A DNA stretch of 35,510 nt from Archaeoglobaceae archaeon (GTDB lineage Archaea > Halobacteriota > Archaeoglobi > Archaeoglobales > Archaeoglobaceae). A program made the position numbers and the translations under genes. The notes below the pieces were generated by a model. It ran no database searches. It was not told the origin of the DNA and saw nothing but the letters and a program-made list of their open reading frames with translations. Location of the stretch: contig JAMOPJ010000039.1 of NCBI GenBank assembly GCA_027064525.1, positions 1-35,510 on the forward strand, written 5' to 3'. Positions 30,984 to 35,510 of this stretch are shown here, piece by piece. Position 1 is the first letter of the stretch. Every line of letters begins with the position of its first letter.

Positions 30984-31007
30984 TTTTGACGGTTTTATCA
31001 AACCTTG

Positions 31008-31754
31008 ATGAAAAGCAAGCACATTGCTGGAGCTATACTGATTGCAATTGGCTCAATACTTGTGTTTAAAGGTGCAATGGATGGAAATCAGAGCATGATA
31101 AACGCTGGAATAGGCGGAGTGTTTTTAGGTGTTGTTGTTCTCACGTTTTCGACTTCAGATTACATAAAATATGACGCCTTTAAGGCTGTAGTTTTACCAT
31201 ATGTTGAATTAGGCAGAAATCTCGTTAACGTGTTGGAGTTAAAGAATAAAGCTGTTTATATTCCACCCTACAGCAACTTACCAGATGGAGGGGTTTTCAT
31301 ACCACTGCACAAGGATTTTGATCTCGACTTAGCTAAACTCGATAGGAATACGATTTTTCTTACAGATGTTGGCAGAGAGAAAGAGATGGGTTTGCTTTTA
31401 GCACCTCTTGGAAAAGAGCTAATGAGGATGTATGAGAGCTATTCTGAAATAGATTTTACAAACGCTGGATTGCATGTTGTTGAAAATGCATCAGCTGTTT
31501 TGAGATCACTTGGCTTAGCAAAGTCTGTAACAGTTGAAGAAAGCGGAGATAAAATAAAAGTGTATGTGGAAGGTGTAAATGTAGATATGTGTTCCAAAAC
31601 CTGCGAGCAGATTGCCTGCCCTATATGCAGTTCTATACTGCTATCAATTGCGAAGAGCCTACAGGAACTAATATTAGTTGAAGAATTTAAAATTGACGAT
31701 AGATTTGTTGAGATCTCTGCAAGGAGAATTGGAGGGATTGATAGATGGATGTAG
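31008..31754 (+). CDS. Membrane-anchored protein with four-cysteine motif, unknown function
   Basis: The 248-residue protein has two N-terminal helices (about 6-22 and 34-48) and a soluble domain. Near the end is a cysteine motif MCSKTCEQIACPIC (C195, C199, C204, C207; spacing C-x3-C-x4-C-x2-C), which could hold a cluster or zinc. An in-frame TTG lies directly before the ATG, but TATA spacing fits ATG 31008. It overlaps the next gene by 10 bp and is divergent from the MoxR operon. I do not recognise a named family. Confidence 0.65.
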   Translation: MKSKHIAGAILIAIGSILVFKGAMDGNQSMINAGIGGVFLGVVVLTFSTSDYIKYDAFKAVVLPYVELGRNLVNVLELKNKAVYIPPYSNLPDGGVFIPLHKDFDLDLAKLDRNTIFLTDVGREKEMGLLLAPLGKELMRMYESYSEIDFTNAGLHVVENASAVLRSLGLAKSVTVEESGDKIKVYVEGVNVDMCSKTCEQIACPICSSILLSIAKSLQELILVEEFKIDDRFVEISARRIGGIDRWM

Positions 31755-31984
31755 ATGATGCGATAATCCTAACTTTAACAATATGGGTTGTTATCTGCTC
31801 TCTCCTAGTAAAAACAGTTGATGTTTACGTAACATTATTGCTTATCGGTCTCTTAATTGTTGCGGAAGTTGCTGGCAATTTCATAAAGCCTGAAACAAAG
31901 CAGGGAATAAAGCCGGCGATATACTTCCTTCTCTTCGTCTTTTTTGTGATAGTTGTTAGAAAGGTTATGGAGGTTCTGAGCTGA
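31745..31984 (+). CDS. Small membrane protein, unknown function
   Basis: The 79-residue protein has three predicted helices (about 5-22, 26-42 and 55-75) with short polar ends (MDVDDA, KPETKQG). It starts inside the end of the four-cysteine protein gene (10-bp overlap), so the two are probably a coupled pair. No family is recognised. Confidence 0.65.
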   Translation: MDVDDAIILTLTIWVVICSLLVKTVDVYVTLLLIGLLIVAEVAGNFIKPETKQGIKPAIYFLLFVFFVIVVRKVMEVLS

Positions 31985-32074: not shown

Positions 32075-32317
32075 ATGGATTATGGTGTTGAGATTAAAAA
32101 AGTGGATAAACAGGGAAGAATAATTCTACCATCGGACTGGAGAAAAGAGGAGCTAAAAGACAATGATGAGGTTTTTATAATCAAGGAGAAGGGTGTTCTA
32201 AAGATAATACCGAAGAAGAAGCCCGATCTGACCAAGTACTTTGATAGTGTAGATTTAGGTGTGGATTTTATTGAGGAATGGGAAGAATTCGAGAGGGAAT
32301 TTCATGAGATTCCTTGA
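32075..32317 (+). CDS. AbrB/SpoVT-type antitoxin
   Basis: The 80-residue protein has a swapped-hairpin AbrB DNA-binding domain at 1-50 (KKVDKQGRIILPSDWRKEEL, then DEVFIIKEKGVLKIIPKK) and an acidic C-terminal tail (VDFIEEWEEFEREF) suited to toxin binding. It overlaps the PIN-domain toxin by 14 bp. Antitoxins of this kind usually repress their own operon. GGTGGAT lies just upstream of the ATG, and CTATTTATTTT near 32031 is a possible TATA box. Confidence 0.88.
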   Translation: MDYGVEIKKVDKQGRIILPSDWRKEELKDNDEVFIIKEKGVLKIIPKKKPDLTKYFDSVDLGVDFIEEWEEFEREFHEIP

Positions 32318-32717
32318 TGCAAATATATTCATCTATGCATATTACAAGCCGAGAAAAGAACTCAGCGAAAAAGCGAGATGGATGAAGGAGGAATCAAAAA
32401 AGATATTGAAGAGGATAAATGATGGAGAAGAGGAAGTAGTAACAACGGTTGTACATTTATCTGAGGTCAATAATTTCCTGAAGAAGTCGATGAACTTAAA
32501 TTCTTTACAGAATCTCTTCTTAGAGCTTTACTCACTTGAAAATTTCAAAATAGTTGATGTCAATGCTGAAGATTATCTTGCAGCCATCGCCATGATGGCA
32601 GAAACAGGATTAGATGCAAACGACTGTTTAGCTCTCAAAGTTATGAGAGATATGGGAATCACGGAAATCTATTCCTTCGACAGAGGATTTGAACGATTCG
32701 TGAGGAGGTTGCCTTAG
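32304..32717 (+). CDS. vapC: PIN-domain toxin VapC
   Basis: From ATG 32304 this is a 137-residue PIN-domain ribonuclease toxin. The four acidic active-site residues are visible: D5 in FLDANIF, E54 in HLSEVNN, D104/D107 in GLDANDCLA, and D126 in SFDRGFERF. The longer open frame from 32259 would extend into the antitoxin and is not used; GAGAGGGAATTTC upstream of 32304 supplies a ribosome-binding site. It is the toxin of the preceding AbrB-type antitoxin and should cleave RNA. Confidence 0.9.
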   Translation: MRFLDANIFIYAYYKPRKELSEKARWMKEESKKILKRINDGEEEVVTTVVHLSEVNNFLKKSMNLNSLQNLFLELYSLENFKIVDVNAEDYLAAIAMMAETGLDANDCLALKVMRDMGITEIYSFDRGFERFVRRLP

Positions 32718-32787
32718 ACTCAAGTGTGAGAATTTAAAAAAGTAGTAAAATAGCAAGAATGCAGAGCTCAAGTCAAATAGCTTATGC

Positions 32788-32795
32788 AGGTGATC
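32788..32795 (+). promoter_or_regulatory. Strong Shine-Dalgarno setting the DUF1616 start
   Basis: AGGTGATC is a perfect eight-base match to the 16S rRNA 3' end and lies six bases before the ATG at 32802. It lies downstream of an in-frame ATG at 32784, so 32802 is the likely start. Confidence 0.7.
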
Positions 32796-32801
32796 GGAAA
32801 G

Positions 32802-33791
32802 ATGAAAAGCTGGAAAAATGCATGGGATCTACTTGCAATAATTTCTCTTTCAGTTTTGCTAATCCTGATGATCTACCTCTTCCCGGAAAGCATATTCAGA
32901 AAAGTTATAGGACTACCATTCATCCTGTTCTTTCCAGGTTATTCCCTCATATCATTCCTCTTTCCTGAGAAGAGAGATCTGGATGTGATCGAGAGGATAG
33001 CCCTATCCTTTGGTTTGAGTGTTGCGATAACACCTCTCGTAGGCTTAGCCTTAAACTATACACCCTTTGGTATAAGATTGACCCCAATTCTGCTAAGCTT
33101 AGCTTCTTTTAACATTGTTTTTTCCTTGCTTGCAGTATATAAAAGGTTCAAAGCAAGAGATCCCTTTATTCCTTTATTAGAATTAAATCAGTTGAAGCAG
33201 GCGATAGGATGGGAAGAAATGAGCAAGCTCGATAAGATTTTGACCGTTATTCTGGTTATTTCAATTATTGCATCAATTGCTGTTCTTATCTACATCATAA
33301 TAACTCCAAAGCAGGGTGAGAAGTTTACCGAGTTCTACATACTCGGCCCCAAGGGTAAGGCTGCCGATTATCCAACGAAGCTTAGAGTTGGACAGAATGC
33401 TACGATAATAATTGGTATAGTAAACCACGAGTATAGGACAGTTAACTACACCGTGGAAATCTGGCTGGTAAACGCAACTTACGAGAACAATAGAACTGTG
33501 ATACATCACATGTACTTCTTTGATAGGTTTAACGTTACCCTTAATCACACACCAGTAAACATAGAAGGAAACTGGACTCCGCAGTGGGAGAAGCCATATA
33601 CTTTCTCAATTGATAAACCCGGAAGGTATAAAATGTGGTTTTTGCTCTTCAAAGATTACGTTCCACCTTTGCCATCAAAACCAGAAAAAATGAAAGATTT
33701 TGCTGGAACTGAAGCAGAAAAGAGGATTTTGGATGCTATAGAGGGTAAAATTCAGAGTCTGAATTTGAATGTTGTTGTTAGAGGAATTTAA
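32802..33791 (+). CDS. DUF1616 membrane protein
   Basis: The 329-residue protein has several N-terminal helices with the DUF1616 core GLPFILFFPGYSLISFLFPE (about 37-56) and ERIALSFGLSVAITPLVG, then another helix near 145-165 and an extracellular beta-rich domain with several N-x-S/T sequons. DUF1616 proteins are widespread in euryarchaea, commonly beside envelope or polysaccharide genes; their activity is unknown. The rmlC remnant directly downstream is consistent with such a neighbourhood. Confidence 0.85.
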   Translation: MKSWKNAWDLLAIISLSVLLILMIYLFPESIFRKVIGLPFILFFPGYSLISFLFPEKRDLDVIERIALSFGLSVAITPLVGLALNYTPFGIRLTPILLSLASFNIVFSLLAVYKRFKARDPFIPLLELNQLKQAIGWEEMSKLDKILTVILVISIIASIAVLIYIIITPKQGEKFTEFYILGPKGKAADYPTKLRVGQNATIIIGIVNHEYRTVNYTVEIWLVNATYENNRTVIHHMYFFDRFNVTLNHTPVNIEGNWTPQWEKPYTFSIDKPGRYKMWFLLFKDYVPPLPSKPEKMKDFAGTEAEKRILDAIEGKIQSLNLNVVVRGI

Positions 33792-33851: not shown

Positions 33852-34158
33852 AGCGTTGAGGAATAGATTGCAGTTGATTTGAGGAAAAAATCTCCAACTT
33901 TTGGAAAGTCCGTAGCTGTAATAATGTCAGAGTTCAACAAATGTATGCTGTATTGCTCACGGATTTTTAGTTTTAAGCGATGGAACTGAAGTAATTTACA
34001 AGGTCGACAACGTATATGCACCGGATCATGAGAGTAGTTTAATTTGGAACGATCCAGATGTAAACATCCCTTGGCCGATTGACAATCCAATAGTGTCCAA
34101 GAAGGATCAGCAGTGGCCAACCTTAAAGGAGTTAGTTGGGAGGGGTGAGTTATTTTAG
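33852..34158 (+). pseudogene. rmlC: Remnant of dTDP-4-dehydrorhamnose 3,5-epimerase (rmlC/rfbC)
   Basis: Conceptual translation shows two pieces of RmlC in different frames. From 33867, IAVDLRKKSPTFGKSVAVIM matches the family's conserved VDLRKGSPTFG region, but an in-frame TAG precedes it. After a junction near 33953, AHGFLVLSDGTEVIYKVDN, then YAPDHESSLIWNDPDVNIPW and PIVSKKDQQWPTL, match the C-terminal half to a stop at 34156-34158. The roughly five residues between YI and AHGF are lost with a frame change, and the N-terminal half is absent. A dead gene; it once made a dTDP-sugar for surface glycans. Confidence 0.85.
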
Positions 34159-34202
34159 TAATACAGAAACGTTTATGTAATGGCAATACGATAAAGTATA
34201 CT

Positions 34203-34424
34203 ATGGATGTTATCAGCTTTAGGATTCCAAAGGAGCTTAAGAGGAGTATGAAGGAAATTGAAATTAACTGGAGTGAGGAAATACGGAAGTTTATTGAGGA
34301 AAAGGTTAGAGAATATAAAAGGATGAAAGCTTTGGAGGAAATAGACACAATGCTTGCAAGCTTACCAAGAGCAAGAAGGGGTACTGCAAGGAATTACGTG
34401 AGGGAGGATCGTGATAGTAATTGA
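34203..34424 (+). CDS. vapB: VapB-type antitoxin (ribbon-helix-helix-like)
   Basis: The 73-residue protein begins VISFRIPKELKRSMKEI, a ribbon-helix-helix strand and helix, followed by a long helix and a basic tail (ARRGTARNYVREDRDSN) that would wrap the toxin. It overlaps the following PIN-domain gene by 14 bp, the usual antitoxin-first order. A TATA-like GTTTATGTA lies about 30 nt upstream. Confidence 0.82.
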   Translation: MDVISFRIPKELKRSMKEIEINWSEEIRKFIEEKVREYKRMKALEEIDTMLASLPRARRGTARNYVREDRDSN

Positions 34425-34812
34425 TGCCTCATCACTGGCTAAATACATTCTTAGAGAAGACAACTGGAAAAAAGTTAGAGAATATTTGTTAGATGAGCCA
34501 TACTCTCTAACTTTAGCTTTAGCGGAAGTTTCAAATGCAATTTGGAAGCATCACGTGCTTTACAAGGAGATATCAGATGGAGATGCAAAAATTATGTTCG
34601 ATGCGTTGAAAAAGCTCAGAGATGTCGTAGTCTTTGAGCCATTTGAGAAGTATCTCGAAGAGGCTATGAAGATATCGATAGAAGAAAAAATAACAATCTA
34701 CGATGCTCTATACTTAGCTCAGGCAAAGAAGCTTAACAGTCTTTTGACGAGCGATGAAAAACAGTGGAAAGTTGCAAGGAAAATGGGAATTAACGCGGAA
34801 TTTATTGAGTAG
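34411..34812 (+). CDS. vapC: PIN-domain toxin VapC
   Basis: A 133-residue PIN-domain ribonuclease with D5 in VIDASSLAKY, E39 in LAEVSNAIW, D98 in IYDALYLAQA and D115 in LTSDEKQWK, the complete acidic set, so probably active. The start is GTG at 34411 behind GGAGGATC. Partner of the overlapping VapB. VapC toxins cleave tRNA or rRNA at single sites; the target here is unknown. Confidence 0.9.
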   Translation: MIVIDASSLAKYILREDNWKKVREYLLDEPYSLTLALAEVSNAIWKHHVLYKEISDGDAKIMFDALKKLRDVVVFEPFEKYLEEAMKISIEEKITIYDALYLAQAKKLNSLLTSDEKQWKVARKMGINAEFIE

Positions 34813-35027: not shown

Positions 35028-35261
35028 ATGCCAAAGCAAGTAATAATTGAAATTCCAGATGAAATATCAGAAAGAGATGTGAGAATAGCCATTGCTGTGC
35101 AACTTTACAGAGATGGTAGATTAACATTAAAGCAAGCTTCAGACTTAGCAGATTTATGTGTAGAAGATTTTATGAAAGTTTTAAGCGAGAAAAAGGTTAG
35201 TATTATCAACTGGAGTGAAGAGGATCTGCAAAAGGAGTTGAAAAATGCAGATAGTTTCTAA
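35028..35261 (+). CDS. UPF0175-family protein (antitoxin)
   Basis: The 77-residue protein matches UPF0175: VIIEIPDEISERDVRIAIAV, then the helix-turn-helix-like LYRDGRLTLKQASDLADL and an acidic tail. UPF0175 proteins sit in front of DUF3368 PIN-domain toxins, exactly the arrangement here, with a 17-bp overlap. ACTATTTTAAATTTTC near 34997-35012 is a likely TATA box. Confidence 0.85.
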   Translation: MPKQVIIEIPDEISERDVRIAIAVQLYRDGRLTLKQASDLADLCVEDFMKVLSEKKVSIINWSEEDLQKELKNADSF

Positions 35262-35412
35262 TACATCGCCACTTATCATTCTTAAGAAAGCTAACGCCAT
35301 TTTCATCTTGGAAAAGCTATTTGATAGTGTTTTAATTTCCGAAGGAGTTAGAAATGAACTATTTAGAAAAGAAAGAGAAGGTGGAGACTGTCAAGACAAA
35401 AGATTAAAATAG
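35245..35412 (+). pseudogene. Truncated DUF3368 PIN-domain toxin
   Basis: ATG 35245, behind GGAG, opens MQIVSNTSPLIILKKANAIF, the start of a DUF3368 toxin, and continues through LFDSVLISEGVRNELFRK before a stop at 35410. At 55 residues it is about one third of the usual 150-160. The residues after EGVRNELF (KEREGGDCQDKRLK) no longer resemble the family, so the C-terminal acidic residues of the PIN site are gone. The antitoxin appears intact, which leaves an orphan antitoxin with a broken toxin. Confidence 0.8.
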
Positions 35413-35430
35413 AATTGATTAATATTATCT

Positions 35431-35510
35431 ATGCAAGGTTTTATTAATGAATTAATTGAGAGAGCAAGGAGGTCTAAGGTATTTAAGAGGAACAAGAAAA
35501 GTTTAGAAGT
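35431..35510 (+). CDS. Possible start of an unidentified gene (partial)
   Basis: An open frame from ATG 35431 runs off the window end, beginning MQGFINELIERARRSKVF and continuing basic and helical. AGATTAAAATAG, about 25 nt upstream, would serve as a TATA box for a leaderless transcript. Only 26 codons are visible, so no function can be given; it may also be non-coding debris after the broken toxin. Confidence 0.3.
   Translation, partial: MQGFINELIERARRSKVFKRNKKSLE

Follow-up and report, generated by a model that had tools for sequence, protein, structure and literature searches.

Introduction

Clusters of rmlA, rmlB, rmlC and rmlD are known from archaea, some of them near aglB (PMC4022621). 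Table 2 of that paper lists the tags of rmlA, B, C and D as 1197, 1198, 1202 and 1201 in Archaeoglobus profundus and as 0544, 0545, 0551 and 0546 in A. veneficus, so that in the former two tags separate rmlB from rmlD, and in the latter four separate rmlD from rmlC. The clustering section of the paper is silent on the genes that fill these gaps. The same table shows gaps of several tags between the rml genes of Thermococcus and Pyrococcus yayanosii. A. fulgidus encodes 12 DUF104 paralogues, some clustered with adjacent PIN genes (PMC2701414), so toxin-antitoxin modules of this sort are common in the family. Among the open-access papers listed in our searches, we found no description of toxin-antitoxin modules within the dTDP-rhamnose (rml) loci of archaea.

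Here we analyse a 35,510-nucleotide stretch (the window), which is the entire contig C39 of an Archaeoglobaceae genome, G000, a draft of 53 contigs and 1.89 Mb. The window holds a broken rmlC, which we think probably derives from a dTDP-L-rhamnose operon interleaved with toxin-antitoxin modules. Such operons resemble the published archaeal clusters (PMC4022621) in bringing together the same four activities; in the genomes studied here their gaps are filled by toxin-antitoxin modules.

Results

The window carries the 3' half of rmlC

Positions 33870-34158 correspond to the 3' half of rmlC (dTDP-4-dehydrorhamnose 3,5-epimerase), codons 86-185, numbered on the intact 185-codon rmlC of the congener G004. 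The features of the relic are as follows.

33864-33866, + strand: in-frame TAG stop of the relic, at the margin of the rmlC homology (PF00908 match, alignment)
33870-33953, + strand: relic piece 1, codons 86-113 (AVDLRKKSPTFGK...MLY; PF00908; tblastn 71%)
33953-33955, no strand: site of a 14-bp deletion relative to intact G004 rmlC, changing the frame (alignment)
33955-34158, + strand: relic piece 2, codons 119-185 and stop (AHGFLVLSD...GELF, then stop; PF00908; tblastn 78%; TIGR01221 75.7 bits)

Two PF00908 matches cover the relic in different frames, one stop-free (33952-34131, profile 112-168, E 4.6e-19) and one containing a single TAG (33864-33968, profile 78-112, E 3.8e-6); the PF00908 score of 68.9 bits lies above the cut-off of 27. 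Against TIGR01221 the 67-residue piece 2 scores 75.7 bits, under the whole-protein cut-off of 155.75, as expected for a fragment. Tblastn with intact G004 RmlC as query aligned residues 85-119 at 71% and residues 118-185 at 78% identity, and blastn against G004 rmlC gave 73% identity over 293 aligned columns with a single 14-base gap. Judged by these alignments, the homology is well past chance. A sequence-only reading of this DNA had proposed a decaying rmlC of about 90 recognisable residues, with a stop and a frame-changing internal deletion, next to DUF1616 and between an envelope gene and a toxin-antitoxin module. The profile and alignment searches agree with it on each point, the flanks being DUF1616 upstream and VapB with a PIN-domain VapC downstream, the recognisable residues numbering about 95, the deletion measuring 14 bp and the TAG lying only at the homology edge, where it may not be rmlC-derived.

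A larger lesion than either of these is the absence of the whole 5' half, codons 1-85: the alignment begins at 33870, codon 86 of 185, about 78 bases past the DUF1616 stop codon. Truncated, frameshifted by the 14-bp deletion and carrying a TAG, the relic is a real pseudogene and, on its own, an ordinary one. We take R60, H63 and H120 to be catalytic residues of RmlC; they are invariant in our alignment. Since R60 and H63, conserved in intact RmlC, both fall within the missing half, the relic is a non-working RmlC. Thus it resembles RmlC (TIGR01221, PF00908) through the match of piece 2, but lacks the 5' half, is frameshifted and has lost R60 and H63.

Over 96 shared codons, dN between the relic and G004 is 0.118, versus 0.150 between the intact G004 and G012 genes, and residues unique to one sequence number 8 in the relic, 8 in G012 and 5 in G004. 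Amino-acid changes are not in excess in the relic compared with intact rmlC genes, and it retains a protein-coding pattern of change. The age comparison uses protein change only, dS being saturated or high; at synonymous sites the relic is closer to G012, which belongs to another genus, than to G004. The rmlC from which the relic descends was under selection over most of its past. Its loss looks recent, as the sequence-only reading had held, and neither dN nor the unique-residue counts show excess change.

The relic remains linked to a VapBC pair

The relic is collinear with a VapB-VapC pair, as intact rmlC is in G004 (70% identity over 923 bases). The features from here to the contig end are as follows.

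34158-34202, + strand: predicted VapBC promoter and operator, with GTAATAC at -45, a near-copy CAATAC at about -20 and the TATA-like TTTATGTA between them (repeat comparison)
34203-34424, + strand: VapB2 antitoxin, intact (NF050799, E 1.4e-28; 68% to G004)
34411-34812, + strand: predicted VapC2 PIN-domain toxin, intact (PF01850, E 1.4e-12; 69% to G004)
35028-35261, + strand: UPF0175-type antitoxin (VapB3), intact (PF03683)
35245-35412, + strand: partner toxin ORF of VapB3, truncated by an insertion sequence (ORF list, contig-end comparison)
35384-35510, + strand: one end of the multicopy insertion sequence IS-B, at which contig C39 ends (common to six other contig ends)

VapB2 and VapC2 overlap and VapB2 exceeds the NF050799 cut-off, the layout of type II VapBC modules. 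Unlike those, the pair here belongs within a biosynthetic operon, and unrelated module types share the junctions of that operon. The earlier reading was right to place the relic beside a toxin-antitoxin module, but overlooked that the module adjoins rmlC in the congener too.

The first base of the predicted operator is also the final base of the rmlC stop codon. This would suit a relic retained as the control region of VapBC, a leader or operator working as DNA rather than as a gene. However, related repeats precede VapB2 in several other genomes, within and outside rml operons, and in four of them (G002, G068, G029 and G033) no rmlC lies upstream, so that rmlC sequence is unnecessary for such an operator. 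The relic's protein-coding pattern of change also speaks against this explanation, which we regard as very improbable. Because the predicted control region is VapBC's own and is also present where no rmlC lies upstream, VapBC can outlive rmlC.

VapC2 is nearer to copies from other genera (77-80%) than to that of G004 (69%); no rml orthologue was found beside those copies in the stretches examined. Taken with the synonymous sites of the relic, which are nearer to G012, this makes a horizontal arrival of the rmlC-VapBC piece possible. The 3' half of rmlC and VapBC might then have come from another cell and been joined behind DUF1616, with the module under selection and rmlC never complete in this lineage. 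The homology to G004 starts abruptly and stops near the end of VapC2, and the rmlC piece is physically tied to VapBC, not to DUF1616, so such an arrival as a passenger is possible. We nevertheless consider it the less probable course of events, given the state of the other rml genes.

The other rml genes are missing or broken

Searches of G000 for rmlA, rmlB, rmlD and an intact rmlC found no orthologue of rmlA (best match 40%, versus 87-89% in G002 and G003) or of rmlB (best match 32%, versus 85% in these two congeners). Likewise, a PF00908 search of the genome revealed no intact canonical rmlC; what it did find was a divergent RmlC-like gene on contig C32. The rmlD gene, also on C32, lacks its first 54 codons and starts at residue 55 at the end of an insertion sequence; rmlD residues 1-57 had no credible match in the assembly (41% over 29 residues, E 0.004, within a 344-residue open frame). 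The RmlC-like gene that adjoins rmlD is intact, and its protein retains R60, H63, H120, Y133 and Y139; at 49.9 bits it is below the TIGR01221 cut-off of 155.75. The genome therefore holds less than the full dTDP-rhamnose set: with rmlA and rmlB orthologues unfound, rmlD truncated, the canonical rmlC broken and only the divergent RmlC-like gene intact, the operon has collapsed. In this draft assembly, rhamnose synthesis by this route is probably lost. The congeners retain the rml operon, and the earlier suggestion that surface-glycan (dTDP-sugar) capacity has changed in this lineage gains support.

In a draft of 53 contigs, an error of sequencing or assembly might conceal an intact rmlC. Such an error would have to account for the absence of half of the gene when no other canonical rmlC was found, and for the loss of rmlA, rmlB and the start of rmlD as well; we give it hardly any credence.

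Two multicopy insertion sequences with different ends, IS-A and IS-B, break up the G000 assembly, and contig ends group into families that mark insertion-sequence ends. The 120 terminal bases of C32 (IS-A) recur at 100% on five other contig ends. By 9-bp target repeats, five of the six IS-A ends on C32's side pair with all five opposite ends, leaving C32 as the sole unpaired IS-A end. For the IS-B end of C39 no clear partner was found by target repeat, IS-B pairs being mostly without a match. These end patterns are as expected if a small missing contig lies between C39 and C32. Placed in this order, C39 (rmlC'-VapBC) and reversed C32 (rmlD'-[AF2212-like/PIN]-RmlC-like) reproduce the gene order of G004 and G002. 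We infer that the two contigs, which no read or contig connects, were once one locus: DUF1616-rmlC'-VapBC-broken toxin module-rmlD'-AF2212-like/PIN-RmlC-like.

Arrival of a ready-made fragment leaves the missing rmlA and rmlB and the broken rmlD unexplained and needs separate losses for them; the order of C39 then C32, which agrees with congeners, also counts against it. Collapse of an operon in place, through one deletion and insertion sequences, is the reading that we favour.

DUF1616 belongs to a separate block

The features upstream of the relic are as follows.

32075-32317, + strand: MazE/AbrB-type antitoxin of an upstream module between p31745 and DUF1616 (PF04014)
32304-32717, + strand: PIN-domain toxin of this module (39-40% to the rml-linked VapC1, probably not orthologous)
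32784-33791, + strand: DUF1616 membrane protein, intact, in a p31005-p31745-DUF1616 block (PF07760, E 1.3e-85)

The block adjoins DUF4129-DUF4350-MoxR genes in five relatives (G013, G026, G033, G067 and G068). Two small conserved genes at 31005-31984 (249 and 79 residues), for which no Pfam match was found, co-occur in relatives, usually by DUF1616/DUF4129 genes. The gap between p31745 and DUF1616, which holds the MazE-like/PIN pair in the window, measures about 0 to 430 bases in the five relatives; three of these gaps were searched with the module proteins used here, and no match was obtained. The pair (32075-32717) was considered as a part of the old operon and left out because it is only 39-40% identical to the rml-linked pair, versus 66-89% among rml-linked pairs.

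No rml gene directly follows DUF1616 in the stretches seen of the five relatives that keep p31745-DUF1616, that of G068 stopping 71 bases past DUF1616. The rmlA of G033 is on the same strand as DUF1616 but about 11 kb farther downstream. DUF1616 right beside rmlA was seen only in G011, as a short, 50%-identical gene directly before rmlA. Since DUF1616 is a member of a separate conserved block in five relatives, it was not the ancestral partner of rmlC. The earlier reading is right that the relic is a decayed rmlC; an original rmlC site by DUF1616 is likely but unproven. A search across seven relatives found no shared sequence downstream of DUF1616, so the left breakpoint is not datable.

Toxin-antitoxin modules occupy internal rml junctions in many relatives

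Among 60 relatives and G000, canonical rmlC (E below 1e-70) occurs only in G004, G012 and G051. Most other PF00908 matches are weaker and end near profile position 148, and those examined represent the divergent RmlC-like protein. The G004 RmlC scores 283.4 bits against the TIGR01221 cut-off of 155.75 and shares 82% identity with its G012 counterpart. In G004 a single run comprises a glycosyltransferase, rmlA, rmlB, [MazE-like/PIN], rmlC, [VapB/PIN] and rmlD.

Genomes G025 and G009 are, we presume, Archaeoglobus profundus and A. veneficus. Their modules agree in size with the published tag gaps, G025 having one pair after rmlB and G009, ahead of the RmlC-like gene, an AF2212-like/PIN and a TumE pair.

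Three further observations concern rmlA and rmlB. A second copy of rmlA-rmlB (96% and 91%) stands at a contig edge in G004 (contig C8, L177), after a related glycosyltransferase. The rmlB of G025 (L180:2723-5236) forms a single open frame of about 838 codons. Just before TDEVYGD it is interrupted by roughly 500 residues whose ends resemble those of an intein, with GDTPVL close to the beginning and HN at the end; we take these to be intein-end motifs and TDEVYGD to be the dehydratase active-site motif. The rmlB of G014 (L179:4023-5209) is divided close to residue 170 by a 1.2-kb stretch with a 322-codon frame on the opposite strand.

Modules lie between rml genes in 13 of 19 Archaeoglobaceae genomes examined, the six without being G011, G012, G020, G021, G035 and G064. 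None was seen at the rmlA-rmlB junction (0 of 19; gaps up to 58 bases). After rmlB, 8 of 20 junctions hold a module (G002, G003, G004, G005, G014, G025, G028 and G034) and the module-free gaps reach 24 bases; at the rmlD/RmlC-like junction, 10 of 17 do (G000, G002, G005, G009, G014, G022, G026, G028, G033 and G034) and gaps otherwise span 11-122 bases. Two-sided Fisher values against rmlA-rmlB are 0.003 and 8e-5, respectively, and overstate independence because the genomes are related. These junction counts exclude G065 and G068, whose rml genes are on separate or partial contigs, and G007, G018, G060 and G062, which have only a 36-39% RmlD relative. Where a genome has more than one operon copy showing the junction (G004, G020), each copy entered the count, and G003 was scored as occupied after rmlB, though its contig stops before rmlD.

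Domain calls on representatives distinguish PIN with a MazE-like antitoxin (under the PF04014 cut-off in G004), PIN with VapB (NF050799), PIN with an AF2212-like antitoxin, TumE and a ParE-like toxin, each with its own short partner, and UPF0175 paired with a PemK/MazF-like toxin. Internal rml junctions that repeatedly hold unrelated kinds of module are an unusual arrangement. Across genomes the MazE-like/PIN proteins are mostly 75-89% identical to those of G004 (66% for the G003 antitoxin), akin to the adjacent sugar genes. Given this similar divergence, the pair has probably long belonged to the operon and is not a newcomer.

Some of the interleaved modules are broken. In seven half-broken modules (one each in G000, G002, G003, G009 and G033, two in G028) the toxin is broken or lost and an antitoxin frame is present, the antitoxin match in G002 beginning only at residue 13. 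No module with only the antitoxin broken was seen among the loci examined; the MazE-like match in G005 ends at residue 72 of 81. These counts are no more than suggestive of preferential toxin decay, as toxins are about twice as long and the chance expectation is about (2/3)^7 = 0.06. The modules, sitting at its internal junctions, could conceivably lock the operon by punishing its deletion, with unrelated types replacing one another at the same two junctions because the position itself is selected and collapse requiring that toxins first be disarmed; we think this unlikely. Modules that guard against DNA loss have been described (e.g. PMC6354349), and the present locus resembles them in having several modules in one stretch, but here the G000 stretch was lost although modules survive.

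In G014 and G034 partial 5' copies of the RmlC-like gene, 34 and 23 codons long (L083:3274-3375 and L187:5333-5401), lie upstream of a module that is followed by the complete gene. This suggests that recombination within the flanking rml genes is how modules get in, part of the neighbour being copied on the way. It also shows that modules can carry or duplicate neighbouring rml pieces, a point in favour of the relic having arrived as a passenger; on balance we still hold that arrival to be unlikely and prefer collapse in place.

Discussion

Our data are best accounted for if the relic is what remains of the rmlC of a module-interleaved dTDP-L-rhamnose operon that recently collapsed in this lineage, and we consider this probable. 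Behind this reading stand the identity of the relic, its collinearity with rmlC-VapBC of G004, the unfound rmlA and rmlB orthologues, the insertion-cut rmlD and the interleaving seen in relatives. A single deletion, from just past DUF1616 to rmlC codon 85, would have taken out the 5' half of rmlC along with rmlA, rmlB and the first toxin-antitoxin pair. Two insertion sequences would then have broken rmlD at its 5' end as well as the third toxin gene, while the VapBC pair behind rmlC, with its own predicted promoter and operator, would have survived. The single deletion, the promoter of VapBC and the loss of rhamnose are, like the union of C39 and C32, parts of this account that we infer.

The relic and its relatives form a natural experiment on the persistence of chromosomal toxin-antitoxin modules. 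In related archaea the number of modules in one short operon ranges from zero to several, with at least six kinds represented, and G000 shows which parts outlast the rml operon. Together they bear, through sequenced genomes, on a long-standing question, helping to distinguish modules that hitch-hike selfishly from modules that stabilise neighbouring genes.
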